Positions 30,923-61,625 of a DNA stretch of 64,000 bases are shown one piece after another. The DNA is from Opitutus sp. ER46 (lineage in GTDB: Bacteria; Verrucomicrobiota; Verrucomicrobiia; Opitutales; Opitutaceae). Under the pieces are notes generated by a model. That model saw only the letters and a program-made list of their open reading frames with translations, ran no database searches and was not told where the DNA came from. Where the stretch lies: NCBI RefSeq assembly GCF_003054705.1, contig NZ_QAYX01000015.1, positions 1-64,000 of the forward strand, read 5' to 3'. The position numbers and the translations under genes were made by a program. Within the stretch, counting starts at the first letter, position 1. Each line of letters starts with the position of its first letter.

Positions 30923-31250
30923 GGTCAGAGGTCAGACGTCAGAGGTCGGATGTCGGAGGTCAGATGTCAGAGGCCGAAGGTCAGAGGTCAGACGCAGGAC
31001 GCCCCGGTGACGATGGCTGCAATTATAAGTGTCTAGGCGGTGGCAACTAGCGGGATAATGTCCAGATACTCCTGAATAATGTCCAGATACGCCGGGGATA
31101 ATGTCCGGATACTCACCCACCCGACTTCCGGCTTCGGACTTCCGTCTTCCGTCCTCCGTCCTCCGGATTCCGTCCTCCGTCTTCCGTCTTCCGTCCTCCG
31201 GCCTCTGGCTTCCGGCCTCTGGCCTCTGGCCTCCGGCCTCCGGCATCTGC
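30923..31250. repeat. Composite block: GTCAGAGG words, triple-repeat element, then CTTCCGTC/CTCCGG words
   Basis: From 30923 to 30994 GTCAGAGGTCAGA-type words repeat. The triple-repeat element copy B (31010-31114) follows. From about 31121 to 31245 come words of the CTTCCGTC, CTCCGGATTC and CTCTGGC type. The block begins near the start of the sialidase-like gene and extends into the 3' end of the DUF4038 gene, which reads through most of it without a stop. Confidence 0.8.
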
Positions 31251-32854
31251 TCGCCCACGCGGCGAATGCGCAGCGCGAGTCCAGCTCGGCCGGGCAGCGG
31301 CACCACGCGATCTGCCGCGTCCACGTAGGTGTAGCTGTCGGCCGGTTTCACGGTGAACTCCCCGTCCACCGGCGTCACCGTCATCGCCCAAGGATCGAGC
31401 ACCTCCACGCGATACCGCTGGCCCGGCGCCACGCCGAGGCAGGGCAGATGAAAAGGCCAGGAGGTCGGCGCTTCGCGGCCAAGATACACGAGGTAGTACT
31501 CGCCGGGTTGCCCGCCGATGGTCGGGTCCTGCCACGGGTCGATCGGCTCGATGCCGTCCGCGGGACCGTCTTCAAGCACGTCGCGCAGAAACGCGATCCG
31601 CGCGGGGCTCTCCCCCACCAGCGCGCCGCCGGCGGACAGCCAGCTCGTGCCCGCCGCGCCGCGCAGCGTCTCGCTGTGCCCGACGTAGGTGCCCGCCACC
31701 GTGCCCGCCCAGAACCGGTGCACCAGCTCCTGCGCCGGGATCCGGCCCCAGCGGGGCCCAGTGTTTCCCTCGTACTTCACCTCGTCGTACACCACCGGTT
31801 TGTTCCAGGCATCCCGGTACAGCTGCGCCCGGCCCGCCTCCTCCGTCGCGAGTCCATTCTGGATACTGGCATGCGTCACCCAGGGCTTGTGGTTGTCGTA
31901 GAGGCGCGCGCCGTTGTGGATCGACCGCAGGTGGCCGTACGGGTCCGCCGCCTGGACGACCTGGAACAGCCGGTCCCACTCGGGCTCCGTCTTCGTGCGC
32001 AGGAAGTCGTACTCATTCGCCAGCGACCACCACACGTTCCGGTACGCCGCCAACCGCGCCACCACGTAGCGCACGTACGCGTCCTCCTCCGCCGCCGTCA
32101 TCGCCTCGAAACTCCAGCTCTGGCCATACGGGTGAAACAGGATCACGTCCGCCTCCACGCCGACGTCCCGCAACTGCGCGACGCGTGCTTCGAGGTTCCG
32201 GAAGAACGCCGGATCGTAACGCGTGAAGTCCCACTGCTTCGGGGCCATGCCGACAAACGGAAACGCCACCGCGGGTGGGCATGGCGAGCCGTTTGACGGC
32301 AGCACCAGCATCCGCGCCTTGTTGAAGGGTGACGCCGCCAGCGTCTGCACCGTCTCCTCCTGCTGCGCCGCCGGACGATACAGCCAGTTGTAGATCGTCG
32401 TCCCGATCGGGCGAAACGGCGTGCCGTCGGCATGCGCAAAATGAAACGTGTGCCGCACACCCACGGGACCGTGGTTCGCACCGCTCGCCGGCAGCACCTG
32501 GAACGCGCCGGTCTTTCCCGTCAGCAGCCGGCGGTTGCTGCGCGTCTCGTAGTGCCAGCGCCCCGGCCGCGGGGGCATGAACCGCACGCGGTAGACGCCG
32601 TCGCCATCGTAGAAGCCCGCCACCTCGAACATCTGCGCGCCCGACGTGAACACCGCCGAAAGGCGCACCTCGGCGAAGGGGTTGCCGTCGGCGGGTCCCG
32701 CCAGCGTCAGCTCATACACGTCCCATTGCGCCACCGTCATCCGCCCGACCGGCACGCCCGCTCCTGGGGCGACGGCAAAGGCGCGCGCGCCGCCACCAAA
32801 CGCCAGGGCGCAGAGGAGAAACCAAGGGAATAAGCGGGAGCGCGAACGGTTCAC
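30932..32854 (-). CDS. DUF5060/DUF4038-type glycoside hydrolase-like protein (apiosidase-like) with a repeat-encoded tail
   Basis: I use GTG 32854 (640 residues), which puts a signal peptide (LFPWFLLCALAFGGGARA) at the N-terminus; an in-frame TTG lies upstream. A DUF5060-like beta sandwich (about 30-120, YDGDGVYRVRFMPPRPGRWHYE) precedes a TIM barrel of the DUF4038/apiosidase-like type (FRPIGTTIYNWLY, ADVILFHPYG, NVWWSLANEYDFL, PVVYDEVKYEGN). The two glutamates in ANEYD and YDEVK are probable catalytic residues. A short C-terminal beta domain ends near residue 536 (LALRIRRV). Residues 537-640 are Glu/Arg/Gly-rich and encoded by intergenic-type repeats, so the original stop was probably lost. 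The substrate is unknown, likely plant-type glycans. Confidence 0.78.
   Translation of the reverse strand: MNRSRSRLFPWFLLCALAFGGGARAFAVAPGAGVPVGRMTVAQWDVYELTLAGPADGNPFAEVRLSAVFTSGAQMFEVAGFYDGDGVYRVRFMPPRPGRWHYETRSNRRLLTGKTGAFQVLPASGANHGPVGVRHTFHFAHADGTPFRPIGTTIYNWLYRPAAQQEETVQTLAASPFNKARMLVLPSNGSPCPPAVAFPFVGMAPKQWDFTRYDPAFFRNLEARVAQLRDVGVEADVILFHPYGQSWSFEAMTAAEEDAYVRYVVARLAAYRNVWWSLANEYDFLRTKTEPEWDRLFQVVQAADPYGHLRSIHNGARLYDNHKPWVTHASIQNGLATEEAGRAQLYRDAWNKPVVYDEVKYEGNTGPRWGRIPAQELVHRFWAGTVAGTYVGHSETLRGAAGTSWLSAGGALVGESPARIAFLRDVLEDGPADGIEPIDPWQDPTIGGQPGEYYLVYLGREAPTSWPFHLPCLGVAPGQRYRVEVLDPWAMTVTPVDGEFTVKPADSYTYVDAADRVVPLPGRAGLALRIRRVGEQMPEAGGQRPEAGSQRPEDGRRKTEDGIRRTEDGRRKSEAGSRVGEYPDIIPGVSGHYSGVSGHYPASCHRLDTYNCSHRHRGVLRLTSDLRPLTSDLRHPTSDV
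31010..31114 (-). repeat. Triple ~21-bp repeat plus TATAATTGCAGCC element (copy B)
   Basis: Read on the minus strand, three GTATC(T/C)GGACATTAT repeats (plus-strand starts 31055, 31076 and 31098) are followed by a 26-bp spacer, then TATAATTGCAGCC (31027-31015) and TCGTC. Repeat phase, spacer length and terminal box match copy A at 10188-10291, while the spacer sequence has diverged. It is embedded in the readthrough tail of the DUF4038 gene. Confidence 0.78.
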
Positions 32855-32931
32855 AGGTGACGCGGGAGGCAGCGAGCAGGACGCAGCCGGGTGACAGCGG
32901 TTGCGACGGGCGCGGGAAACGCGCCGGAAAG

Positions 32932-32965
32932 ACAACGCGGCCCGCGCCGGAGGGGCGCGGGCCGC
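32932..32965 (-). terminator. Probable terminator of the TonB-dependent receptor gene
   Basis: A perfect 12-bp G+C stem (arms 32937-32948 and 32954-32965, loop of five) stands 45 bases past the receptor stop. On the minus strand it is followed by GTTGTCTTT, a weak U-rich tract. The stem strength and position make termination likely. Confidence 0.7.
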
Positions 32966-33010: not shown

Positions 33011-36000
33011 TCAGAACGTCGCGCGGAAGCCGAGCGAGTACTGCGCGCCGTAGTCCTCGATGTTGGTCTTGGTGGCCCAGTACGCCACGCCCGGACCCGA
33101 CACTTCCCACTCGCTCTGCGCGTTGAGCAGGTTGCGCACGGCGAAGAACGTCGAGTAGCGCTTCGTCAGCTGGTACTCGGCGCTGGCGTCGACCTGGTAG
33201 CGGGCGCGGATGTACTCGTTGGCGCCGGTGTACCAGTTGCTGCTGTCACGCAGCATCCGGCCGCGCCAATTCACGAGCACGTTGCCGGTGAACTTCGGGA
33301 AGTTCCAGCTCACGCCAAAATTCCGGGAGCGCGGGATGTAGCGTTTCCAGTCCGAGGAGGTAATGCGCGAGCCCGAGAGATCGAGATGCGTCGCATTGGC
33401 CATCAGCGTGAAGTGGCGCGCAAAGCTGTGGCCAACCGGCTCCAGCCAGGGTCCCCACTCGGCGAGATTGGCGAGCGGCAGGCTCACGCTGGCTTCCCAG
33501 CCCTGGATCCGCGCGTCCGCCACGTTGATCCGGCGGGTGTATTTGTAACCCAGCGCTTCGTGGCCGATGCCGAGTTCGTCGAGCAGCGCCTGATCGGCGA
33601 TCTGACTGATCGAGCTGAAAAAGTTCCGAATGTCCTTTCGGTACACATTGAACATCAGCATGCCGCCCTTCGGCATGTAGTACTCGATCGAGTAGTCGTA
33701 ATTCTTCGCGGTCCAGGGCTTCAGGCCAGTGTTCGCGCCGGTGATCCACCCGATGTCCGGCGAGGACTGGGACTGGTTCAGGTTCTCCTGCACGTAGAGG
33801 TTCGGCACGATGTCCGAAAGGTTCGGCCGGCCGATCGTCTTGGCGAAGGCAGCGCGTAGCAGCAGATTCTCAGTCAGGTTGAACGTGGCCGCCGCGCTCG
33901 GGTGGTAGTACGAGTAGTTGCGAGACGCGTAGTAGCCGCGCTTCGTGTAGAGGGCCGCGTTGTAGGCGGCGGAGCCGCTGGCGCCGAGTTCGGGCCGCAC
34001 CGTCGTGGTGAGCTTCCCGTTCGCATCGCGGACATACAGGTTGTTGTAGTCCTGCTTGTAGCCCATGCCCTCGTCCTCGGTCAGCTCGTAGCGCACGCCG
34101 CCGACCAGCCGCAGCCGGCTGCTGAACATCTTGGCATCGGCCATGAGGTAGCCCGACGTGATGGTCTCGTGGAACCACGGCGAACGCATCGCGATGTTCT
34201 TCACCGTGTCACCCATCTGGCCGGTGGTCTGCGTCCACCAGTTCGGGTGCTTCTGGAAATCCTGGTAGATTTTGAAGACATCAGGCCACTCCGGAGCGAC
34301 GCGGCCAAAGCCGGGGCTAACCCCCTTGTCACCCTGGGAGGCATAGCCCACCAGGCTGTTGTCGGCGTTACTCGTGATGCCATCGGGCCCCACATAGGTG
34401 TAGGCGATGGTCGCGTACTCCTGATCGCGCTTCGAATCGATGATGTCGCCGCCCAGCTTCACGGTGACCGGGATCCGCCAGATATTCAGGTTCCGGGCGA
34501 GGCTGCCACGGATCTGCTTCACGTCGTCGACGTTGTTCGCCGGCTCCGAGGCATTGGAGGCCTGCGTCAGCAGCCAGTTGCTCAAGTTGGTTTCGTCGAT
34601 GCGCGTGCCCGCCGCATTGTAAACCTCCGTGGTGCCGACCTTGCCCTGCGAGGTGTCGAAGTCCCGCAGGTTGACGCGGGCGACGCCGGGCAGCGTGACG
34701 CTGATCGAGCGGAAGAAGCCCTTGGCCATGTCGCGCGTGCGGTTGTTGGCGTTCGAGTAGTTGAAACCCGACTCCCAGCGCCAGTCGTTCTTGTCGAACT
34801 CGAAGATCAGGCCCATCGAGCGCGTGAGCGCGTGGCGCTCCTGGAAGCTCGTGCTCATGCCCATCGAGCCGCCGCTGGCGTTGCCGAGCGTGTTGTGCTC
34901 ATCCCACGTGACCGGCGTGTTGTTGCCGGTGTTGTAGGTGATGCCGCGGGAGGCGGTCTGCTGCTTCTGGGCGGTCGCCATCAGGTTCAGCTTGATGAGC
35001 GCATTGTCGAACGGCTTGAAGTCGACGGCCAGGCCGGCACCGGAGCGGTCCGAGCGGTTGGGCGCGAAGCTCGTGTTGAAGCTGTTGACGAACGGCGCGG
35101 TGATCGAAACCGCCTTGGTCGGATCCGTGCCGGCCGGATTCGCGTTGCCGGTGAAGCGGTAGCCCATGACCGACTTGTTCTGCAGATAGAACTGGCTCGA
35201 GTGCTGCGCGGTGACGACGAAGCCGAGCCGCTTGTTCACCGGCATCACGTACTGGATGTCGAACGAAGGGAGCACCTTGTAGGTCTTCTCGTTGAACGGT
35301 CCGGCGCTGTTCTCGTAATCGATCTCCTTCTCATTCGCCGAGAGGTAGGCCGAAACGCGCAGCTCGGGGCGGACACGCTCGAAGGCGCTCTTCGTGACGA
35401 AGTTCACCGAACCGCCAAGCACGTTGGCCGACATGTCCGGCGTCGGCAGCTTCACCACTTCCACGCGGGAGATGTTGTTGATGTTCATGCCCTCGAGCAC
35501 GAACTGGCGCGACGAGGTCTGCGTGTTGGCCACGAGCGTGCTGGCCAGCTGGCCGCCGTCCATCGTCACGTTGGTGTAGTTCGGGTCGAAGCCGCGAACC
35601 ATGATGCCGGAAGGCGTGTTGCCGTCCTTCACGTCGAGCGAAATGCCGGGCAGGAACTTCACGAACTCACCGATGTTGCCCTGGTTGATCTCGCCGAAGG
35701 CATCGGTGGAGACGACGTCCTTGCGGGCCGCCGCGAACCGCTGCTCGTTGATCGCGATCGCCGCCGCGCTCATCTCGCGCTGGCTCTGCACCACGAACTC
35801 CGAGAGCTTCACAACCTTGTTTGCCTCATCGGCCGTCATCGTGACGTCGACCGTCGCGCTGCCGCCGGCCGGCACCGTCACCGTCTGTTCCGTCGCGGTG
35901 AGGCCGGTATAGAAGACCGAGATCTTCGCCTCGCCGGCCGGCACGCCACTGATGCGGAACTCGCCGAATTCATTCGTGAGCGCCTCGCGCGTCGTACCGA

Positions 36001-36217
36001 TGACCCGCACGCGGGCGTTGTTCAGGTACGAGCCGGTGTCCACGTTCTGGACCCGACCTGTGATCACGCCCGTCGCGGCGGTCTGCGCCTGCGCCGGAGT
36101 GAGAATAGCCAACGCAACGAGCAGAGCGCAGAGCGGCGCGAGGAAACGCGACGCCAGCGAACGGCGGGTTGCGGAAACGAATTTCCCAAACGGGAATCTG
36201 CCGATCCGAGTAATCAT
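33011..36217 (-). CDS. TonB-dependent receptor with N-terminal carboxypeptidase-like regulatory domain
   Basis: This 1068-residue outer-membrane receptor imports large substrates using TonB energy. A signal peptide (about 20-45, ending TPAQAQ) is followed by a carboxypeptidase-D-like beta sandwich (about 48-130, GVITGRVQNVDTGSYLNNARVRV). The plug domain (about 140-280) has GEINQGNIGEFVKFLPGISLD and MVRGFDPNYTNVTMDGGQLAS, and a 22-strand barrel ends in YGAQYSLGFRATF. This layout is common in Verrucomicrobiota and Bacteroidota glycan uptake. The promoter has a consensus TTGACA overlapped by a LacI-type palindrome, so it is probably sugar-induced. Two glycosidase-like genes follow on the same strand, suggesting that it imports their products. 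Confidence 0.94.
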   Translation of the reverse strand: MITRIGRFPFGKFVSATRRSLASRFLAPLCALLVALAILTPAQAQTAATGVITGRVQNVDTGSYLNNARVRVIGTTREALTNEFGEFRISGVPAGEAKISVFYTGLTATEQTVTVPAGGSATVDVTMTADEANKVVKLSEFVVQSQREMSAAAIAINEQRFAAARKDVVSTDAFGEINQGNIGEFVKFLPGISLDVKDGNTPSGIMVRGFDPNYTNVTMDGGQLASTLVANTQTSSRQFVLEGMNINNISRVEVVKLPTPDMSANVLGGSVNFVTKSAFERVRPELRVSAYLSANEKEIDYENSAGPFNEKTYKVLPSFDIQYVMPVNKRLGFVVTAQHSSQFYLQNKSVMGYRFTGNANPAGTDPTKAVSITAPFVNSFNTSFAPNRSDRSGAGLAVDFKPFDNALIKLNLMATAQKQQTASRGITYNTGNNTPVTWDEHNTLGNASGGSMGMSTSFQERHALTRSMGLIFEFDKNDWRWESGFNYSNANNRTRDMAKGFFRSISVTLPGVARVNLRDFDTSQGKVGTTEVYNAAGTRIDETNLSNWLLTQASNASEPANNVDDVKQIRGSLARNLNIWRIPVTVKLGGDIIDSKRDQEYATIAYTYVGPDGITSNADNSLVGYASQGDKGVSPGFGRVAPEWPDVFKIYQDFQKHPNWWTQTTGQMGDTVKNIAMRSPWFHETITSGYLMADAKMFSSRLRLVGGVRYELTEDEGMGYKQDYNNLYVRDANGKLTTTVRPELGASGSAAYNAALYTKRGYYASRNYSYYHPSAAATFNLTENLLLRAAFAKTIGRPNLSDIVPNLYVQENLNQSQSSPDIGWITGANTGLKPWTAKNYDYSIEYYMPKGGMLMFNVYRKDIRNFFSSISQIADQALLDELGIGHEALGYKYTRRINVADARIQGWEASVSLPLANLAEWGPWLEPVGHSFARHFTLMANATHLDLSGSRITSSDWKRYIPRSRNFGVSWNFPKFTGNVLVNWRGRMLRDSSNWYTGANEYIRARYQVDASAEYQLTKRYSTFFAVRNLLNAQSEWEVSGPGVAYWATKTNIEDYGAQYSLGFRATF

Positions 36218-36262
36218 GGGGTGTTAGGTGAGGTTTGCCCCGGCTCCACCAGCCGGGCGTTA

Positions 36263-36314
36263 TTTCATCTGAAACAACAGCAATATTGAGCCGTTTCATT
36301 GAAACTGTTGTCAA
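36263..36314 (-). promoter_or_regulatory. Promoter and paired palindromic operators of the TonB-dependent receptor gene
   Basis: On the minus strand TTGACA (36314-36309) is followed within four bases by GTTTCAATGAAAC (36305-36293, near-perfect palindrome) in the -35/-10 spacer. A second site, TTTCAGATGAAA (36274-36263), is centred about 30 bp (three helical turns) downstream. The possible -10 is CTCAAT, 18 bases from the -35. The second site is base-for-base the operator found at the lacI promoter (45578-45589). Confidence 0.65.
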
Positions 36315-36464
36315 TGCCATTTTCGGCCGGCCGGTCCGCCGCCTTGCCGCCAGTCAGCCGCAACAGCCCGACATCGCCCCGTAAATCCGCCGATTTGCCC
36401 TCGGAGTCCCGATGCATGGGCCGCGCCCGGGGACGGCGTCCGCGGCGTCAGTGAAATTACGATC

Positions 36465-36527
36465 TTGACCAAGATTTTTTCATGAAACCCACTCGGGTTG
36501 CCCGTTTTGCGCCTCGCTTCCATGAAA
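36465..36527 (+). promoter_or_regulatory. Promoter with palindromic operator upstream of the dehydrogenase-pdxA pair
   Basis: TTGACC (36465-36470) is followed by the perfect palindrome TTTCATGAAA (36478-36487) inside the spacer. A weaker copy, TTCCATGAAA, lies at 36518-36527, 26 bases before the ATG. This is the same -35 plus operator arrangement as at the TonB receptor and lacI promoters. The -10 box is not obvious. Confidence 0.55.
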
Positions 36528-36552
36528 GCCCCGGCGTGAACGTCACCTCGCC

Positions 36553-37713
36553 ATGATCTTCGCTTCGTCGCGCCCCCTCACCCTGCTTCAGGCCGGCACC
36601 CTCACGTTCGGCCCCGGTTCTTCCGCCTCCTGTGGCCGCCTCCTGGCCGAGCGTGGCTGCCGGCGCGTCGCGCTGGTTTCGTCGCCGGCCATCGCGGCGA
36701 CCGCCGAAGCTTTCGCCGCCCCACTGCGCGCCGCCGGGCTTGAGGTCGTCCCGCTCTACTCCGTGCCGGCCGAGCCCGACGTGGCCGCGCTCGACGCGCT
36801 GCGGGCGGAGGTCGGATCCTCCGCCCTCGATGCCGTGGTCGGCATCGGCGGTGGCAGCGCGCTCGACGTGGCCAAGCTCCTGGCCGGCATGCACGGCCGA
36901 TCCGAGCCGGTCGGTCGGTACTTCGGCACCGGGCTCCTCCCCGCGCGCCGCGTCGTCCTCGCCTGCGTCCCCACGACCGCCGGCACCGGCAGCGAGGTCT
37001 CGCCCAACGCCATCCTCTACGATCCCGCGGATCAGTTGAAAAAGGCGGTGATCAGCCCGCACCTCGTGCCCGATATCGCGCTGGTCGACCCTCAGCTCAC
37101 CGTCACCTGCCCGCCCGCCCTCACCGCCGCGACCGGCATCGACGCGCTCGTGCACTGCCTCGAGGCCTACGCCAACCGCTTCGCCCATCCGATCGTCGAT
37201 CTCTACGCGCTCGAGGGCATCCGGCTCATCGCCGGAAATCTCGAGCGCGCCGTGAAACAGGGCGACGACCTCGAGGCCCGTTCCGCCGTCGCGCTGGGCA
37301 GTCTCTACGGCGGGCTTTGCCTCGGGCCGGTGAACACCGCGGCCGTCCACGCCCTCGCCTACCCGCTCGGCAGCGAGTTTCGGCTCCCTCACGGGCTCTC
37401 CAACGCCCTCCTCCTGCCCCACGTGGTGAAGTACAACCTGCCCGCCGCCCCCGAGCGCTACGCCGAGATCGCGCGCGCCCTCGGCGTCACCGTCAGTGGT
37501 CCCGCCGCCGACATCGCCGCCCGCGGCGTCGACCGGCTCGAGGCGCTCTGCGCCGCCTGCAACGTGCCGACCCGGCTCTCCGCCGTCGGCGTCAAGGCCG
37601 AGCACATCGCCGGCCTCACCGCCTCCGCGCTCAAAGTCACGCGCCTCCTCAAGAACAACCCGCGCGAGCTCTCCGCCGCTGACATCGAGCAGATTTATCG
37701 CCAGGCGCTCTAG
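36553..37713 (+). CDS. Iron-containing alcohol dehydrogenase family protein
   Basis: The 386-residue product is a group III (Fe-type) dehydrogenase. The NAD-binding region contains VVGIGGGSALDVAKLLAG, the conserved PTTAGTGSEVSP follows, and metal-binding residues are seen in DALVHCLEAYANRFAHP and AVHALAYPLGSEFRLPHG. It probably oxidises a hydroxy-acid or polyol, or reduces an aldehyde, in the cytoplasm. It is followed 35 bases later by pdxA-like DNA on the same strand. The pair is preceded by a LacI-type operator, which points to sugar-acid catabolism rather than cofactor synthesis. Confidence 0.9.
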   Translation: MIFASSRPLTLLQAGTLTFGPGSSASCGRLLAERGCRRVALVSSPAIAATAEAFAAPLRAAGLEVVPLYSVPAEPDVAALDALRAEVGSSALDAVVGIGGGSALDVAKLLAGMHGRSEPVGRYFGTGLLPARRVVLACVPTTAGTGSEVSPNAILYDPADQLKKAVISPHLVPDIALVDPQLTVTCPPALTAATGIDALVHCLEAYANRFAHPIVDLYALEGIRLIAGNLERAVKQGDDLEARSAVALGSLYGGLCLGPVNTAAVHALAYPLGSEFRLPHGLSNALLLPHVVKYNLPAAPERYAEIARALGVTVSGPAADIAARGVDRLEALCAACNVPTRLSAVGVKAEHIAGLTASALKVTRLLKNNPRELSAADIEQIYRQAL

Positions 37714-37748
37714 CTCGCCCGCACCCCACGTCGTCCCGATCCCGCCGC

Positions 37749-38756
37749 ATGAACTCGTCCCCGCTCCCCCTCGTCGCCATCACCATGGGCGACCCCGCCG
37801 GCACCGGCCCCGAAATCATCACCAAGGCCCTCGCCGGCCCCGAGCTTTACCAGCTCTGCCGCCCCCTCGTCGTCGGCGACGCCGCCACGCTCCAGCGCGC
37901 CCTCGGCTACACCGGCGTCAACGTCACGGTCCGGGCCGTCCGCGCCGTCGCCGAGACCACCGGCCGCCATGGCATGATCGAGGTGCTCGATCTCGCCAAC
38001 GTCGACGCCGCCCGGCTCCAGCTCGGCCGCGTCGACCCCATGGCCGGCAAGGCCGCGTACGAATGCGTGAAGACCGCCGCCGAGCTCGCCCTCGCCGGCC
38101 GCGTGGGCGCCATCGTCACCTCCGCCATCAACAAGGAGTCGATGAACCAGGCCGGTTATCACTACGACGGCCACACCGGGCTCCTCGCCGAACTCTGCCA
38201 GGCGCCCGACGCCACGATGATGCTCGCCGCCGACGGCCTGCGCGTGAGCCACGTCTCCACGCACGTGCCGCTGCGTGTCGCCATCGAGCGCGTCCAGCCC
38301 GAGCGCATCCTAAGTGTCATTACGCTGACGCATGCCGCGATCCGCGGTCTCGGCATCGCCAAGCCCCGCCTCGCCGTGGCCGGGCTCAACCCGCACGCCG
38401 GCGAACACGGGCTCTTCGGCGACGAGGAGGAAAAGTTCATCGCCCCGGCCATCGCCTCCGCCCGCCAGCTGGGCATGGTCGTGTCCGGGCCGTACCCAGG
38501 CGACACCGTCTTCTTCCGCGCTCTCCAGGGCGAGTTCGACGGCGTCGTCGCCATGTACCACGACCAGGGCCACGTCGCCGTGAAGATGCTCGGCATCTGG
38601 CGCGGTGTGAACATCACCCTCGGGCTCCCCATCATTCGCACCTCCGTCGAACACGGCACCAACTTCGACATGGCCGGCACCGGCAAATCCGATCCCCGCA
38701 GCCTCGTTGAGGCCGTGAAGCTCGCCGCCGCCCTCGCCCGCACCCGCGAGGTATAG
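37749..38756 (+). CDS. pdxA: PdxA-family NAD-dependent 4-hydroxythreonine-phosphate-type dehydrogenase
   Basis: The 335-residue product has the PdxA landmarks: ITMGDPAGTGPEI at the N-terminus, HTGLLAELC, metal-binding LNPHAGEHGLFG, VAMYHDQGHVAVKM, and RTSVEHGTNFDMAGTG. PdxA proper makes the pyridoxal-phosphate precursor; PdxA2-type relatives oxidise D-threonate or D-erythronate 4-phosphate. GTGPEI in place of the common GIGPEI, the partner dehydrogenase and the operator upstream make a catabolic role plausible, but the two cannot be separated from sequence by eye. Cytoplasmic homodimer expected. Confidence 0.88.
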   Translation: MNSSPLPLVAITMGDPAGTGPEIITKALAGPELYQLCRPLVVGDAATLQRALGYTGVNVTVRAVRAVAETTGRHGMIEVLDLANVDAARLQLGRVDPMAGKAAYECVKTAAELALAGRVGAIVTSAINKESMNQAGYHYDGHTGLLAELCQAPDATMMLAADGLRVSHVSTHVPLRVAIERVQPERILSVITLTHAAIRGLGIAKPRLAVAGLNPHAGEHGLFGDEEEKFIAPAIASARQLGMVVSGPYPGDTVFFRALQGEFDGVVAMYHDQGHVAVKMLGIWRGVNITLGLPIIRTSVEHGTNFDMAGTGKSDPRSLVEAVKLAAALARTREV

Positions 38757-39228
38757 AGAAATCTCTCTCTTTCTCGTTCGCTTTCTCGTCACGGAGCGCA
38801 CGGAGGTCGGAGGAGGACACGGAGGAAGGCCGACCCACGCGGATCTTTGCTCCGTGCCCCTCCTCCGATCTCTGTGACCTCCGTGTCCCGCCAGGAGGAT
38901 CACCCCTTCTTTCGCCCGGAAATGTCCGCGCAACGTCCCTATCCCTCAGAAATCTCGCATTCGTCCCAAATACGGTCACTTCCGCGATTGTTCCGAAACG
39001 TGCGCGCAAGCTAGACTCTGCTGAACCGCGATCCTGCCTCGCGGCTCCGAAACGACAACGAGAACGACCGCCCCGGCCCCCTGTCTGCAGCCTCCCTGCC
39101 TCCGCTCCCACCACTCCATCCTCCCGTCCGCCCGTCCCCACTCACTCGGTCCCCCTGCCTCCGTTCCCCGTCCCTCCGTCCCCACTTTCACTTTCACTCT
39201 CGCTTTCACTCTCACTTTTGCCTCCTCC
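38757..39228. other. Intergenic region (472 bp) with inverted word-repeat and pyrimidine-rich leader
   Basis: The first part (38758-38890) is a word-repeat: CTCTCTTTCTCG words, then an inverted pair of CGGAGG-type words (left 38790-38825, right 38849-38890). A possible promoter is at 38988-39017. From about 39061 to the next ATG the plus strand is almost only C and T (CCCTCCGTC, CTTTCACT words), giving a ~165-base pyrimidine-rich leader with no normal ribosome-binding site. I see no gene or structured RNA. Confidence 0.6.
38988..39017 (+). promoter_or_regulatory. Candidate promoter of the TPR membrane protein gene
   Basis: TTGTTC (38988-38993) and TAGACT (39012-39017) are separated by 18 bases, in a locally AT-richer stretch. 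The match to sigma-70 consensus is moderate. It would leave a leader of about 200 bases, mostly pyrimidines. Confidence 0.3.
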
Positions 39229-41214
39229 ATGGCCGAATCTTCTGAACTCCTCGGGCGCGCGCCGGAACCGGTGCCACCGCACGTCGTGGAGCCTCGGCCA
39301 GTCTTCGTCCCCGATCCGGAGGCCCCGTGGCGGCGCTGGTTCGCGGCGCTGCTGATCGTCGCCGCCATCGGTCTCGCCTACGCCAACAGTTTCCCGGGGG
39401 CCTTCTTCTTCGATGACGATGCGGCAATCCTGCAGAACACCTCGTTGCGCGACCTCGGTAACTGGCGCCGTGTGCTGTGGCCGCCGGTCGAAGCCGGCAT
39501 TGGTGGTCGCCCCCTCGGTAACCTCACCTTTGCGCTGAACTACGCGCTCGGCGGCTACAGCCCCGCGGGTTTTCACGCGGTCAACCTCGCGATCCATGTC
39601 GCGGCCGCGCTCGCGCTGTTCCTCCTCACCCGGCACACGCTCCGGCGTCCGCGCCTCGCGCCCCGGTTCGCCGCCCTTGCCACCCCGCTCGCCGTGGTCG
39701 TCGCCCTGCTGTGGGCACTCCACCCGGTGCAGACCAACGTCGTCGACTACGCCTCCCAGCGCACCGAGGGGCTGATGGCCGCGCTGTACGTGTTCTGTTT
39801 GTACGCCTTCGCGCGCGGCCTCGAATCGGGCTCGCGTGGCTGGACGACCCTCGCCGTCGCCGGCGCCGCCCTCGGCATGGCCACGAAGGAGAACATGGTG
39901 ACGGTGCCGCTGCTGGCGCTGCTCTATGATCGCACGTTCGTCGCCGGCAGCTTCGGCGCCGCCGTGCGCCGCCACGGCTGGCGTCATCTCGCCCTCGCCT
40001 CCACCTGGCTCCTGCTCGCCGGCCTGATGGCCTATTCGCGGCTCAACGCCCGCGGCGTCGGGTTCGGCATCGGCCGCTCCGCCTCCGATTACGCGCTCAC
40101 CGAGATCCGCGCCGTCGCGCAATACCTGCAAGTCGCCGCCTGGCCGCATCCGCTCGTCTTCGACTATGGGACCAACTTCTACGTGGGCGACTTCGCCGCA
40201 GTGTGGCCACAGGCGCTCCTGCTGTTCCTCGCGCTCATCGCGACGATGTGGGCCCTCGTCCGCCGCCCCGCCGCGGGCTTCGCCGCCGCCTGGTTCTTCC
40301 TCACGCTCGCGCCTTCCTCCAGTATCGTACCCGTCGTCCAGCAGCCGTGCGCGGAGAACCGCCTTTACCTGCCGCTCGCCGGCCTCGCCGCCTTCGTCGC
40401 CATCGCCGGTACGCGCGCCCTCGGCCGCCGCGGCCCGCTGCTGTTTGGCGCCGCGGCCGCCGCGCTCGGACTCGCCACGGTCGCGCGCAACCCGGTGTTC
40501 GCCAGCGAACTCGCCGTCTGGACTAACACCGTGGCCGTGAATCCCGGCAACGCCCGCGCCGCCAACAACCTCGCCAACGCGCTCCTCAAGCGCGGGCGCA
40601 ACGAGGAGGCCATGGTCCACATCGAGCGCGCGATCGCGATCTCCCCCAACTATGCCGACGCCCACAACAACCGCGGCGTGGTCTTCCTGCGCCGGGGCCA
40701 GTTGCAGGAGGCCATCACCGAGTTCCGCGCCGCGATGAGGAACAAGGCGAACTACGCCGACGCCCACTACAACCTCGGCCAAGCCTACGTGCAGTTGCAC
40801 CAACCGGCGGAGGCCATCGCCGCGCTGCGCGAATCGCTTCGGCTCCACCCGGGCAATCCCCGCGCGCTGAACAATCTTGGCATCGCGCTCCTCGACGCCG
40901 GTCGCGTCGACGAATCCCTCACGGTTCTCCGCCAAACGCTGGCGATCGACCCCGCGATGCCCGAGGCCCACTACAACCTTGGCAACTCGCTCGCCCGCGC
41001 CGGCCAGCCCGAGGCCGCGCTCGCCGCCTACGACCGCGCCCTCGCTCACGACCCGAAGTTCGCCAAGGCCCACAACAACGCCGGCGTGGTCCTGCTCCGG
41101 CTCGGCCGGCCCGCGGAGGCCGCCGACCGCTTCGCCGCCGCCCTTCAGATCAAACCGGAGTACCCCGAGGCCAGGCGCAACCTTGAGCTGGTCCGGCCGA
41201 GCGCGCACCATTGA
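39229..41214 (+). CDS. Polytopic membrane protein with C-terminal TPR repeats (DUF1736/O-GlcNAc transferase-like)
   Basis: The 661-residue product has about ten membrane helices in residues 38-430, with a dolichol-phosphate-sugar transferase-like loop (NSFPGAFFFDDDAAILQN, then RPLGNLTFALNYALGG) and LWALHPVQTNVVDYASQRTEGL near residue 162. This fits the GT-C/TMTC-type group. Six TPR units follow from about residue 440 to 650 (for example YADAHYNLGQAYVQLHQPAEAI and PEAHYNLGNSLARAGQPEAAL). It probably transfers sugar from a lipid carrier, or assembles a membrane complex. It lies between the pdxA pair and the symporter on the same strand, but its link to the sugar region is unproven. Confidence 0.8.
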   Translation: MAESSELLGRAPEPVPPHVVEPRPVFVPDPEAPWRRWFAALLIVAAIGLAYANSFPGAFFFDDDAAILQNTSLRDLGNWRRVLWPPVEAGIGGRPLGNLTFALNYALGGYSPAGFHAVNLAIHVAAALALFLLTRHTLRRPRLAPRFAALATPLAVVVALLWALHPVQTNVVDYASQRTEGLMAALYVFCLYAFARGLESGSRGWTTLAVAGAALGMATKENMVTVPLLALLYDRTFVAGSFGAAVRRHGWRHLALASTWLLLAGLMAYSRLNARGVGFGIGRSASDYALTEIRAVAQYLQVAAWPHPLVFDYGTNFYVGDFAAVWPQALLLFLALIATMWALVRRPAAGFAAAWFFLTLAPSSSIVPVVQQPCAENRLYLPLAGLAAFVAIAGTRALGRRGPLLFGAAAAALGLATVARNPVFASELAVWTNTVAVNPGNARAANNLANALLKRGRNEEAMVHIERAIAISPNYADAHNNRGVVFLRRGQLQEAITEFRAAMRNKANYADAHYNLGQAYVQLHQPAEAIAALRESLRLHPGNPRALNNLGIALLDAGRVDESLTVLRQTLAIDPAMPEAHYNLGNSLARAGQPEAALAAYDRALAHDPKFAKAHNNAGVVLLRLGRPAEAADRFAAALQIKPEYPEARRNLELVRPSAHH

Positions 41215-41437
41215 GGCTCGCCGCGGGCGTCCCGCCCCAGCCTCGCTCCGTCGAGGCGTCTTCAACCGGGACGCGTCCCGCCGTGCCGCGCGCCCGGTGC
41301 GAGCTACGAGACGGTACCGCAATCTGCGGGATTGATGCGGGCCCGACGTCCCGCCACACCCAACGCCTCCCGGGCACCTGCCCACCAGCAACGCTTCGAA
41401 CGCAGGTGCGTCTGTCACCTCGCCCCCGCCCCTCCCC

Positions 41438-42985
41438 TTGAACCTCCATACCTTGGACTACCTCGTGCTCGCCGCCTACGCGGTGGGTATCGTCACGCTC
41501 ACGTTCATCGTTTCGCGCCGCCAGAAGACCTCCGAGGACTACTTCGTGGCCGGCCGCTCCATGCCCGCCTGGGCCGTCGCGATGGCGCTCATGGCCGCAC
41601 TGATCAGCAGCAGCACCGTGATCGGACACCCGGCGACCGTCTATCAGAAGGGCATGATCCTCCTGCTGGGGAACGCCTCGCTGCTGTTCGTGCTCATCTT
41701 CGTCTCGCGCGTGATCGTCCCATTCTACCGCCACGTCATCGGCATGAGCGCGTACGAGTACATCGGGCAGCGCTTCGGCGTCGGCGGCCGGCTCTACGCC
41801 TCGGCCGGGTTCGTCGCCTCCTGCGTGTTCGATCTCGGGCTCACTCTCCTCACGACCGCGATCGCCCTGAACATCATGACCGGGTGGAACCTCACCGACG
41901 TGCTGTTCTGGACCGCGGGTTTCACGATTCTCTACACGATGATCGGCGGCATGGAGGCCGTGGTCTGGTCGAGCGTCATCCAGGGCTCCGTCCTCATCGG
42001 CGCCGCCTTGATGATGATCGGGCGGCTCGTTTTCGCACCCGAGGCCGGCGCCCCAGGCGCGGTCGTCGTGGAGGCCTGGCGCGACGGTCGCTTTGGTCTC
42101 GGCTCCTTCGAGTTCAGCTGGAAATCGCTCTTCGACCCGGAGGTCACGACGCAGTGGATCTTCCTGCTCGCGTACCTCGGCAACTGGTGCCGCCGCTACA
42201 TCGCCGACCAGCACATGGTGCAGCGTTACCTGATCGCCCGCACCGACCGCGACGCCAGCCGCGGCGCCTTCTGGAACGGCTTCCTGTGCGTCCCGGTCTG
42301 GGCGACGTTCATGACGATCGGCGCGTGCCTCTACGGCTACTACAAGCTGACCGGCAACGCCGGCCCGGAGCTGAGTGACAACATCGTGCCGCATTTCATC
42401 GTGCACTACATGCCGGCCGGCTTCGTCGGCCTCATCCTGGCCGCGATCATCGCCGCCACGATGTCCTCGATCAGCGCCGACCTGAACAGCATCGCGACCG
42501 TGATCACGACCGACCACGTCGGCCACTTCGTCCCTAACATGGCCGACCGCACCCGGCTCCGCGTCGGCCGCCTCATGGTCGTGGTCGCCGGCCTGCTCGC
42601 GATGGCGGTGGCGTACCTGATGCGTCCCACCGCCGGCGCCGCCTCCGTGATGGAGCGAGGCGTGACCGTCGCGGCGATCCTCTCGGGCGGCATGCTCGGC
42701 CTGTTCTTCCTGGGCTTTCTCACGCGCCGCGCCACCCGCCGCGGGTGCTATATCGGCATCTTCGCCTGCGCGGTGTTCACTGCGTGGGGACTCCTCACCG
42801 AGCCGAAGCACCGCGTGCTGGACCTGCCGTTCAACTTCGAGATGAACCCGATCCTCATCGGCGTGTTCAGCCATGCGGTGCTCTTCGGCGTAGGCTACCT
42901 CGCCAGCCTCCTCTTCGGCGGCCACCGCCCCGAGAACGTCGAGCAACTCACCTTCCGCCGCGCCAGCCTCAAGAAAATGGGCTGA
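41438..42985 (+). CDS. Sodium:solute symporter (SSS family)
   Basis: The 515-residue product has about 13 membrane segments and the SSS signatures SEDYFVAGRSMPAWAVAMALMAALISSSTVIG and LILAAIIAATMSSISADLNSIATV (Na+ site helix). It imports a small solute, probably a sugar or sugar acid given its neighbours, using the sodium gradient. Initiation is at TTG 41438, since no in-frame ATG precedes the first helix. It is the most likely inner-membrane partner of the TonB receptor; the specificity is inference. A word-repeat block follows directly. Confidence 0.9.
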   Translation: MNLHTLDYLVLAAYAVGIVTLTFIVSRRQKTSEDYFVAGRSMPAWAVAMALMAALISSSTVIGHPATVYQKGMILLLGNASLLFVLIFVSRVIVPFYRHVIGMSAYEYIGQRFGVGGRLYASAGFVASCVFDLGLTLLTTAIALNIMTGWNLTDVLFWTAGFTILYTMIGGMEAVVWSSVIQGSVLIGAALMMIGRLVFAPEAGAPGAVVVEAWRDGRFGLGSFEFSWKSLFDPEVTTQWIFLLAYLGNWCRRYIADQHMVQRYLIARTDRDASRGAFWNGFLCVPVWATFMTIGACLYGYYKLTGNAGPELSDNIVPHFIVHYMPAGFVGLILAAIIAATMSSISADLNSIATVITTDHVGHFVPNMADRTRLRVGRLMVVVAGLLAMAVAYLMRPTAGAASVMERGVTVAAILSGGMLGLFFLGFLTRRATRRGCYIGIFACAVFTAWGLLTEPKHRVLDLPFNFEMNPILIGVFSHAVLFGVGYLASLLFGGHRPENVEQLTFRRASLKKMG

Positions 42986-44240
42986 AAAGCTGAAAGTCTG
43001 AACGCTGAAGGAGGCGACGGTTGCCCGCGCCGCCCGCGTCGTCTCCTTCGCGCGCCTCGTTCCCCTTCGGTCTCAGCCTCCGACGTCAAAACCTGAGGTC
43101 ACCGCGAGCCCAGCCACGAGAACTCGCGGTCGGCTGCCCCGACCTTCCTTGGTTCGAAACCGGCAACCTTCAAACCTGCAACCTGCCAACGTCGCACGCG
43201 CGGTTCAACGCGCCCCCGCCCACCCCAGGTTTTCGCGCCCCTTCGCGCCTTTCGCGGTCACCCTCCTCCGCCCCTCCACATTCGTCTCCCTTCGTGTGCA
43301 TTCGCGGTTAAGTCCGGTTTGAACCGCGAACGGCCGCGAACACTCGCGGTCGTCTTCCCCAACCGTCCGTGGTTCGGAAACGGCAACCTTCAAACCTGCA
43401 ACCTGCCAACGTCGCACGCGCGATTCAGCGCCCCCTTCCCCAATACCTAAGCTCACCGCGAACGACGCGAACCCAGCCGCGAAAACCCTCGGTACTCGCT
43501 CCCGCTCACGCCTTCGCACCCAGTGCCCGTCCACCCCAGGTTTTCGCGCCCGTTCGCGCCTTTCGCGGTTCCCATCCTCCGTCCCTCCACATTCGTGTCC
43601 CTTCGTATGCATTCGTGGTTAAGCCCGGTTTGAACCGCGATCAGCCACGAACACGCGGTCGTCTGCCCCGACCTTCCTTGGTTCGAAACCGGCAACCTTC
43701 AAACCTGCAACCTGCCAACGTCGCACGCTCGATTCAGCGCCCCCTTCCCCAATACCTAAGCTCACCGCGAACGACGCGAACCCAGCCGCGAAAGCCCGCG
43801 GTCCTCGCTCCCGCTCACGCCTTCCCCCCGGCGCCCGCCCACCCCAGGTTTTCGCGCCCGTTCGCGCCTTTCGCGGTTCCCATCCTCCGTCCCTCCACAT
43901 TCGTGTCCCTTCGTATGCATTCGTGGTTAAGTCCGGTCTGAACCGCGATCAGCCACGAACACGCGGTCGTCTGCCCCGACCTTCCTTGGTTCGAAACCGG
44001 CAACCTTCAAACCTGCAACCTGCCAACGTCGCACGCGCGGTTCAGCGCCCCCTTCCCCAATACCTGAGCTCACCGCGAACGCCCGCGAACCCAGCCGCGA
44101 AAACCCTCGGTCCTCGCTCCCGCTCACGCCTTCGCCCCCAGCGCCCGCCCACCCCAGGTTTTCGCGCCCGTTCGCGCCTTTCGCGGTTCCCATCGCGCGT
44201 GAGCTGATCACTCGTGCTCTTCAGCCATTCGTGGTTAACC
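42985..44240. repeat. 1.2-kb tandem repeat block, ~305-bp period, four copies
   Basis: Copies of CACCCCAGGTTTTCGCGCC begin at 43221, 43532, 43840 and 44140, giving periods of 311, 308 and 300. Each unit strings together the same words: CCTTTCGCGGTT, CATTCGTG(T/G)..., GAACCGCGA, GGTTCGAAACCGGCAACC, CCTGCAACCTGCCAACGTC and CTCACCGCGAACG. The first unit is preceded by a short GCTGAAAG word-repeat (42985-43014). The whole 42986-44351 gap holds no gene; apparent frames follow the period. It shares vocabulary with 51-560. Confidence 0.9.
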
Positions 44241-44351
44241 GAAGGCCTTGCTGATCATCCGCCCCTTGTGCCTTCACCCCGAGGCCCATGGGGCTGGACC
44301 GCGGGCGGTGCTGAACGATGCGCGTGGTTCGTTGGCTATGCCGCGTTCGGC

Positions 44352-45446
44352 TCAGGCGTGATCCAGCGTCACGACGGAATCGCGTTCCACCAGCGTGGGC
44401 TCGACGAGCACCTCCACGCTGAGCGGTTCATCCGGGTGCCGCATCCGCCAGAGCAGCTGGTCCACGGTGCGGCGGCCGATGAAGTCCGCATGCACGTCGA
44501 TGGCCGTCGGCGCCGGGTTCAAATCCATCACCAGGGACATCTCGTTGTTGCACGAGACCACGCTCACATCGACGCCCGCGCGCAGGCGGCGCCGCTCGAG
44601 CGCCGAATAGAGCTGCACCGCCGCCCGGTCCGACGGTACGAACAGCGCGGTCGGCCGCGTCTTCACCGGCAGCTTGATCCAGCGGTCGACCAGCGTATTC
44701 ACGTTGCCCTGCTGCGTCGTGGCCGGCAGCGGCCACACCAGCGGATCGCGTCGCTCGCTCTCCAGGATCGTTGCCTCGCAGCCCGCGCGGTCCGCGCAGG
44801 CCATGAAGCCCGTCTTGAGCCGCTCGAACTGCGTCTGCCCCGGCTTCGGGTTCAGGAAGCCGAGCCGCCGATGCCCCTTGTCGCGGAAATGCTGCACGAC
44901 CAGCCGCGTCGCGACCGTCGTGTCGAAGTTGCAGTGGTCGCCGCGCGCGTTCTCCAGCCGGCCCATCAGCCACACGTGGGGGATGCGATAAACGTGCGCG
45001 AGCAACTCGCACTCGGCCTCGGGCGGCAGGACGCCCTGGTTCGGGCCCTTCAGGATCAGCCCATCAACGCGTTTCTCCGCCAGGAACGGCGGCACGCGGT
45101 CCCCGCGCGGCACGTTGGCGATCATGATATTCCGGCCCAGCCCGGCGAGCGCGTGCTCGATGCCCTGGAGCGCCGCGCCGATGACCGGCAGGTGCGCGAG
45201 GGTGTCCTCCATGCCGAAGATGATGATCGCGATGTTGCCCAGCTGCGTGGGCGCCGCCGGCGCGGCCGGTGCGGACCGTCGCTGGCGCAGCCGCGTGTAG
45301 TTCAGCTCCCGTGCCGCATTCAGCACGCGCGCGCGGATCTCGGCGTTCACGTCCGCGTAGTTGTTCAGCACGCGGGAAACGGTCCCGAGGGACACGTCCG
45401 CCGCCTTGGCGACATCAGTGATCGTGGCTGCCTTGGTCTTGGCCAT
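44352..45446 (-). CDS. LacI-family transcriptional regulator
   Basis: The 364-residue product has the LacI helix-turn-helix at residues 8-30 (ATITDVAKAADVSLGTVSRVLNN) and hinge helix RARVLNAARELNY, then a Pro/Ala spacer and a periplasmic-binding-protein-like sugar domain (GNIAIIIFG, VDGLILKG, GRRTVDQLLWRM). Such proteins usually repress sugar genes until a sugar ligand binds. The promoter carries the palindrome TTTCAGATGAAA, suggesting self-control. The same or similar sites precede the TonB receptor and the dehydrogenase-pdxA pair. The gene ends near the tandem repeat block and is not in an operon. Confidence 0.93.
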   Translation of the reverse strand: MAKTKAATITDVAKAADVSLGTVSRVLNNYADVNAEIRARVLNAARELNYTRLRQRRSAPAAPAAPTQLGNIAIIIFGMEDTLAHLPVIGAALQGIEHALAGLGRNIMIANVPRGDRVPPFLAEKRVDGLILKGPNQGVLPPEAECELLAHVYRIPHVWLMGRLENARGDHCNFDTTVATRLVVQHFRDKGHRRLGFLNPKPGQTQFERLKTGFMACADRAGCEATILESERRDPLVWPLPATTQQGNVNTLVDRWIKLPVKTRPTALFVPSDRAAVQLYSALERRRLRAGVDVSVVSCNNEMSLVMDLNPAPTAIDVHADFIGRRTVDQLLWRMRHPDEPLSVEVLVEPTLVERDSVVTLDHA

Positions 45447-45577
45447 GGAGAGGAACGTTAGGCGTGCGCACAGCCGGTTGCCTCCGCTGGGAGCGACAAC
45501 GATAGCCTCGGAACGAGACGGATGACGCGGCGCATGAAAGAAGGCCCCCGGGGAGCCCGGAAGCCGGGCTGGATCTA

Positions 45578-45616
45578 TTTCAGATGAAAGAAGAACCTGT
45601 CAATGAAGTTCATGAA
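45578..45616 (-). promoter_or_regulatory. Promoter and operator pair of the lacI-type gene
   Basis: On the minus strand TTGACA (45603-45598) is followed by TTTCATCTGAAA (45589-45578) in the spacer, then an AT-rich stretch that could contain the -10. A second palindrome, TTCATGAA (45609-45616), is centred 29 bp upstream. The 12-base site is identical to that at 36263-36274. Confidence 0.65.
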
Positions 45617-45676
45617 ATTATGTAATTCGCGCCGACTGCTCACCGCATCCTCCCTGCCGACCCAATCGCGTGTGAA

Positions 45677-61504: not shown

Positions 61505-61625
61505 CAGAGGCCGGAAGCCAGAGGCCAGAACTCAGAGGAGAACGGATCAGTCGGCCACTGGCCTCCGGCTTCCGGCCTCTGATTTCCGGCTTCTGGTTTC
61601 TGGCCTCCGGCTTCTGGCTTCAGAG
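61505..61625. repeat. Inverted word-repeat (CCAGAGGCC/GGCCTCTGG family) after glmS
   Basis: A 23-base left arm (61505-61527) and right arm (61559-61581) are complementary at 22 of 23 positions. Further copies of the right-arm words (CCGGCTTCTGG, TCTGGCCTCCGG) run to about 61625. It lies in the 249-bp gap between glmS and trpE. It could act as a transcript-end hairpin but has no T-tract. Confidence 0.85.

Follow-up and report, generated by a model that had tools for sequence, protein, structure and literature searches.

A putative LacI-family regulon in Opitutus sp. ER46 with operator half-sites at three spacings

We describe a candidate regulon in a 64,000-nucleotide stretch of the Opitutus sp. 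ER46 genome (contig NZ_QAYX01000015.1, positions 1 to 64,000; hereafter the window), where a gene for a LacI-family regulator (44352-45446, minus strand) lies near a TonB-dependent receptor operon and a dehydrogenase-pdxA operon. Judged from the sequence, a local LacI regulon joining these genes is well supported. The explanation we consider best, with a probability of roughly 0.7, is that the LacI protein is a local repressor that reads half-sites at variable spacing, its hinge having been replaced by a flexible linker. The protein would repress a set of genes for polysaccharide or acid-sugar utilisation by binding inverted TTTCA and TGAAA half-sites close to where lacI, the receptor operon and the dehydrogenase-pdxA operon begin, directly following a -35-like TTGAC, until an inducer derived from the pathway releases it. 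The hinge would be replaced by an arginine-rich stretch (RLRQRR) together with a longer linker, leaving the distance between the two DNA-reading heads unfixed, so that central gaps of 0, 1 or 2 bases could all serve. A pair of sites about 30 bp (three helical turns) apart would accommodate two dimers next to each other.

Four exact sites carry this proposal in the window. A shared 12-base element, TTTCATCTGAAA, had been predicted before both lacI and the TonB receptor, and it is found at 45578-45589 (minus strand) and 36263-36274 (plus strand), respectively. Its description as a palindrome holds for the half-sites only: the element reads TTTCA-TC-TGAAA with its two central bases unpaired, and the centre varies among sites, so we rejected a perfect palindrome. 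The related sites claimed at the receptor and dehydrogenase promoters are also present, GTTTCAATGAAAC as the minus-strand reading of 36293-36305 (half-site core from 36294) and TTTCATGAAA at 36478-36487 (plus strand). The spacer between TTTCA and TGAAA is 2 at 36263 and 45578, 1 at 36294 and 0 at 36478, which places all three spacings under one regulator. The centres of the two receptor sites lie 30.5 bp apart, and a weaker second lacI site (GTTCATGAAA, one mismatch, 45608-45617, no strand assigned) is centred 29 bp from the first. Each promoter also has the predicted -35-like hexamer within 4-9 bases of a site: TTGACA at 36309-36314 (minus strand) 4 bases ahead of the receptor site, TTGACA at 45598-45603 (minus strand) 8 bases ahead of the lacI site and TTGACC at 36465-36470 (plus strand) 7 bases ahead of the dehydrogenase site. 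In the presumed leaders of the receptor and lacI transcripts, GC-rich hairpins (36239-36257 and 45542-45570) follow shortly after the operator; they look terminator-like by scan and are perhaps leader structures.

The spacer-0 site at 36478 is unconvincing alone and appears credible mainly because relatives have a site at the same gene (L043, L044 and L076/L120, in the locus labels used below). It also contains ATGAAA, which on a reading of the sequence opens a 24-codon frame from 36482. A role as a translated leader was considered and dropped: the frame enters the dehydrogenase start out of frame, while the site ATG in L120 shares the reading frame of the gene, and the arrangement is not conserved.

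The sites are rare. Across the source genome (5,714,369 bases in 25 contigs), TTTCA-N(0-2)-TGAAA occurs at 11 places, four of which are the window sites, and the only two matches to TTTCATNTGAAA are the two TTTCATCTGAAA sites. The interval 36263-45589 makes up 0.16% of the genome, for which arithmetic gives about 0.02 places by chance against the four seen. A search of the window allowing two mismatches returned six matches, compared with a mean of 0.99 and a maximum of four in 100 shuffles. Five of the other seven places are TTTCATGAAA copies that, judged from their flanks, read as Met-Lys starts, TTTC-ATG-AAA. The last two are a spacer-1 place at the end of a long open reading frame (ORF), beside what appears by eye to be a tRNA gene, and a spacer-2 place inside a long ORF.

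The same contrast holds across related loci. In 59 promoter segments (17,567 bases) from 32 loci of both groups described below, inverted pairs number 12 at N0, 5 at N1, 8 at N2, 1 at N3 and 3 at N4, where shuffle means are 0.01-0.04; the near-duplicates L077, L087, L088, L092 and L095 and the outgroup L054 had been dropped from this count. Mapped coding DNA of those loci (222,006 bases) has no pair at N0-N4, and the motif is therefore not as frequent in coding DNA as in promoters, the outcome named in advance as counting against the prediction (25 N0-N2 pairs in 17.6 kb of promoter, none in 222 kb of coding sequence). That the sites are chance matches in AT-rich promoter DNA could draw on how easily TTTCATGAAA arises at Met-Lys starts, as five of its six genome places, all except 36478, read so. 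We nevertheless find chance scarcely credible, as it is contradicted by conservation at the same genes across genera and, for the site set as a whole, refuted by the genome counts, the coding control and the shuffles.

Orthologues of the LacI protein were drawn from 57 genomes (the source genome included), from a set of 252 family genomes in which 30, again counting the source genome, match at E <= 1e-70, and from one contig scan that gave 7 loci. The resulting comparison has 38 rows, the window plus 37 loci labelled L###, divided into 21 near rows, 16 far rows and the outgroup L054, with LacI relatives 43-72% identical to the window protein. An exact site is present in the stretch examined in 17 of the 21 near rows and in 4 of the 16 far rows. 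One near row, L089, has its exact site at lacI's own start codon, which leaves 16 informative near rows, and the group includes near-duplicates (L077/L078, L082/L088 and L086/L087). The near rows with no exact site in that stretch are L046 (a short contig), L047, L080 and L083, and the outgroup L054 has none either. Near-group sites precede lacI, as in the window, and also a symporter, the iron-containing alcohol dehydrogenase and receptors. The nearest relative (L076, 72%, continued in L120) has them ahead of the dehydrogenase and of two receptors. The second of these receptors mirrors the window pair, with TTGACA, a gap of 4 bases, a one-mismatch site and a spacer-2 site centred about 30 bp on. 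On the strength of such same-gene sites, the predicted grouping of regulator, receptor and dehydrogenase-pdxA pair appears to hold.

Two or three exact spacings occur at single loci in L042, L044, L078, L079, L082, L084, L086 and L076/L120, and variable half-site spacing under one regulator appears to be conserved. Layout was compared further in the window and 19 loci from the near group and the extra targets (L046, L077, L087, L088 and the whole far group were excluded). The 14 spacer-2 sites give the consensus TTATTTCA-TA-TGAAATAA, with a centre that is mostly TA and not CG. When two sites lie within 150 bp of each other and at least one is exact, their centres are 29-32 bp apart in 11 of 17 cases, whatever the spacers. 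TTGAC precedes 13 of 38 exact sites at a gap of 4-9 bases and on one strand (which may not be the gene strand at every site), compared with 94 in 4000 randomly chosen positions of these loci, mostly coding DNA, that have TTGAC within 25 bases; L045 has a second TTGAC at a gap of 13 on the other strand. Genome G056 holds further site pairs away from lacI (L121 7508-7548 and L122 5991-6031; centres 29.5 and 30 bp apart). One of these precedes another TonB receptor, and the G056 regulon may be wider.

The regulator itself is a recognisable member of its family. It has a LacI-type helix-turn-helix (HTH) at the N-terminus (PF00356, 55.4 bits, cut-off 27) and a periplasmic-binding-protein-like sensor domain (PF13377, Peripla_BP_3, 97.6 bits, cut-off 26.5) within 364 aa. 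It reaches the cut-off of none of the 15 NCBIfam models listed, and orthology to CytR is not indicated (NF008269, PRK11041; 51.7 bits versus a cut-off of 436). Its structure model is nearest RbsR and PurR, the best Foldseek match being RbsR with ribose. The hinge helix with Ala51 and Leu54, a typical though not universal LacI/GalR trait, is missing from the window protein, where codons 48-71 (LNYTRLRQRRSAPAAPAAPTQLGN; 45234-45305, minus strand) align as an interdomain linker and are coil in an AlphaFold2 model, with pLDDT below 50 at residues 55-67. Aligned to Escherichia coli PurR, LacI and CytR from the K-12 record, none of the 38 orthologue rows has Ala at the PurR Ala51 place together with a hydrophobic residue at 54, compared with 6 of 16 rows in a paralogue set of other LacI-family proteins of these genomes (L102-L117, found by HMM search). 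Arg takes the Ala51 place in 30 of the 38 rows, Ala in none, and Arg occupies place 49 in 37. With L054 left out, the interval from PurR Tyr45 to Ser61 spans 18-23 residues in the remaining 37 rows, compared with 15 in PurR, LacI and CytR, and an arginine-rich stretch is found in 37 of 38 rows. The other 10 of the 16 paralogues lack Ala51 plus a hydrophobic 54, and hinge loss may be common in Opitutaceae.

Several observations weigh against a variable-spacing repressor or narrow its reach. The near group has weak tree support (82/75), and the nearest orthologue, L076, has no site, even with one mismatch, before its own lacI. A promoter scan found no full sigma-70 match at the window receptor or lacI sites, and the upstream gap of the window symporter has no site. 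Only four far rows carry an exact site (L048; L093, where it lies behind lacI; L096; and L097); the far group instead shows TGAAA-N19-TTTCA or half-site arrays, and it too is without the hinge residues. The AlphaFold2 model was made without a canonical LacI protein as control, and linkers of LacI proteins are often disordered without DNA. The recognition helix was also considered as proof that LacI reads the sites: L046 and L047, both without an exact site, have SVSR or SASR where most have TVSR. That argument is weakened by L080 and L083, which keep TVSR without a site, and by L097, which has TASR with one.

That the missing hinge would explain the three spacings is a fit of two observations, and the regulon could be real with its spacing tolerance unrelated to the hinge. 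One spacing would then mark a strong site and the rest would act as lesser, accessory sites, in the way that a single central base distinguishes lac operators. We think this unlikely, yet it is the rival we take most seriously. Exact sites of spacing 0-2 are rare in the far group although the hinge residues are missing there as well; in four pairs (the window receptor, L120, L121 and L122) spacer 0 or 1 occurs on the TTGAC side and spacer 2 in the partner site, and the spacings may have different tasks; and LacI itself is described as binding both O1, with an intervening base, and SymL, without it (PMC2978694). This division of labour is broken at the window lacI and in L076 at 7137, where the spacer-2 site is the TTGAC-side one, and the three spacings recur at many promoters, each with exact half-sites.

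A different objection is that another transcription factor binds the sites and lacI is one of its targets. The start-codon site of L089 and the site that L097 keeps despite a changed recognition helix lean this way, as do counts beyond the locus. Summed over 31 genomes with an orthologue, the spacer 1-2 pattern occurs at 289 places against 72 for a reversed control, and over 28 genomes chosen from those without an orthologue at 131 against 52. Genome-wide spacer 1-2 counts are weakly specific, and we rejected them as proof of exclusivity because orthologue-free genomes also exceed the control. Some other lacI loci carry the pattern as well, namely L113 and L114 in the paralogue set (16 loci, 25.8 kb) and L028 and L032 in a further 20 loci (74.4 kb), the L032 site being the L113 site. 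Near these genes TTTCA-N(0-1)-TGAAA stands at L113 1511 (= L032 2773), L114 223 and L028 1459. The half-site may accordingly be common to a broader set of regulators. A separate factor is nonetheless improbable in our view, since in the source genome, once start codons are set aside, the sites concentrate within 10 kb of this lacI and one of them precedes it, and this clustering recurs in most near-group loci. We give slightly less credit still to the idea that the functional unit is the outward-facing TGAAA-N19-TTTCA, with the short palindromes merely adding outer half-sites. This outward pair occurs 11 times in promoter segments (shuffle mean 0.03) and by manual count extends to far-group loci L048, L091, L093, L094 and L098; many exact sites, however, have no partner within 150 bp, and half-sites 24 bp apart are, by LacI-type geometry, far for one dimer.

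The genes of the cluster form a candidate set for uptake and breakdown. Divergent from the dehydrogenase, the TonB-dependent receptor (33011-36217, minus strand, 1068 aa; Pfam, with TIGR01782 above cut-off) is followed downstream on the same strand by a DUF5060/apiosidase-like glycosidase (30932-32935; Pfam) and a GH43-like protein with BNR repeats (28939-30906; Pfam). Relatives of the former occur in L042, L044, L079, L080, L081, L084, L086, L087 and L120, and a 71% identical relative of the latter lies behind the L120 receptors. On the plus strand lie the iron-containing alcohol dehydrogenase (36553-37713, 386 aa; Pfam) and a PdxA-family dehydrogenase (37749-38756, 335 aa; Pfam, with TIGR00557 above cut-off), which scores 344 bits, below the cut-off of 583, against the D-threonate 4-phosphate dehydrogenase model. 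They are followed by a TPR protein (39229-41214), a neighbour in two related clusters (L076 and L078) for which no operator of its own was seen, and by a sodium:solute symporter (41438-42985) that is 81% identical to the L042 symporter, which has a site. L042 (genome G030) runs lacI, symporter, dehydrogenase, aldolase-like, DUF1537, pdxA and BNR protein, with glycosidases adjoining; its aldolase-like (DHDPS), DUF1537 and BNR names come from sequence reading and not from family-library matches. The DUF1537 and aldolase-like genes that accompany pdxA there were not found in the window cluster, which in this respect differs from relatives where DUF1537 neighbours pdxA. Two matches to DUF1537 (PF07005) exist in the source genome outside the window (G000:C17:289399-290133 and G000:C24:54521-54976); considered as further targets, they were set aside, with no site at up to one mismatch in 4-5 kb around each. 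We take the window gene set to resemble four-carbon acid-sugar routes.

Repeats also mark this region. Between the symporter and lacI, 43215-44194 holds a 308-bp unit repeated 3.2 times at 93% match, and arrays of 7-, 14-, 21- and 28-bp repeats occupy 30923-31249 at the end of the glycosidase gene, whose frame reads through them into a low-complexity EDGRRKTEDG-like tail. Similar arrays lie at 61553-61621.

The arrangement recalls several known systems and matches none of them fully. The regulator shares with LacI, PurR and RbsR an HTH joined to a periplasmic-binding-protein-like sensor, inverted half-sites at promoters and a site at its own gene, and autoregulation is recorded for 72% of LacI-family regulators (PMC4052901). 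That survey reports spacing to be usually constant, with even palindromes for 1251 of the 1303 regulators and CG centres for 1173, whereas here the spacing takes three values, both odd and even, and a CG centre is absent. EbgR-like regulators of Lactobacillus plantarum (LacR, GalR and RafR) offer a parallel in which loss of the hinge leucine accompanies loss of the central CG; variable spacing and an arginine-rich linker are not mentioned in the portion consulted (PMC2329647). At the cre-var sites of clostridia, the LacI-family protein CcpA uses inverted repeats at variable spacing, but it is a global regulator with spacers given as 7, 8 and 18, and its TGTAAA/TTTACA half-sites face the other way (PMC5263246).

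The closest parallel is CytR. A 1998 paper by Jorgensen, cited in both PMC3454398 and PMC2978694, reportedly attributes its variable spacing, in the title, to a flexible, unstructured linker. CytR of E. coli reads half-sites at variable spacing (PMC3454398), a relaxation that the recurring N0, N1 and N2 sites here appear to share, and it too departs from the hinge motif, with GRNV where PurR has ARSL. CytR acts with CRP on nucleoside genes through weak half-sites (PMC3454398); the window family has strong half-sites at glycosidase, receptor and acid-sugar genes, and a linker 3-8 residues longer and rich in arginine. We propose that the window protein is a CytR-like flexible half-site reader that evolved apart from CytR. 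More broadly, and only tentatively, at a shade under even odds, a LacI lineage of Opitutaceae and related Opitutales may have given up the hinge helix in favour of a long flexible linker that carries an arginine-rich arm, and thereby come to read several half-site spacings, with a sister branch using an outward-facing or tandem order. It would have done so apart from CytR and perhaps without a CRP-like helper; cooperativity would come from a second site at a distance of three helical turns.

Operator searches for LacI proteins generally presuppose a fixed spacing and mostly a central CG. An open-access literature search found no LacI regulon described for Verrucomicrobia or Opitutaceae, and the word Verrucomicrobia was not found in the LacI-regulon survey (PMC4052901). 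The system described here would extend the known regulons of a phylum in which that search turned up no LacI regulon. The family, whose hinge is replaced and whose natural spacers measure 0, 1 and 2, would provide a natural test of the role of the hinge helix.

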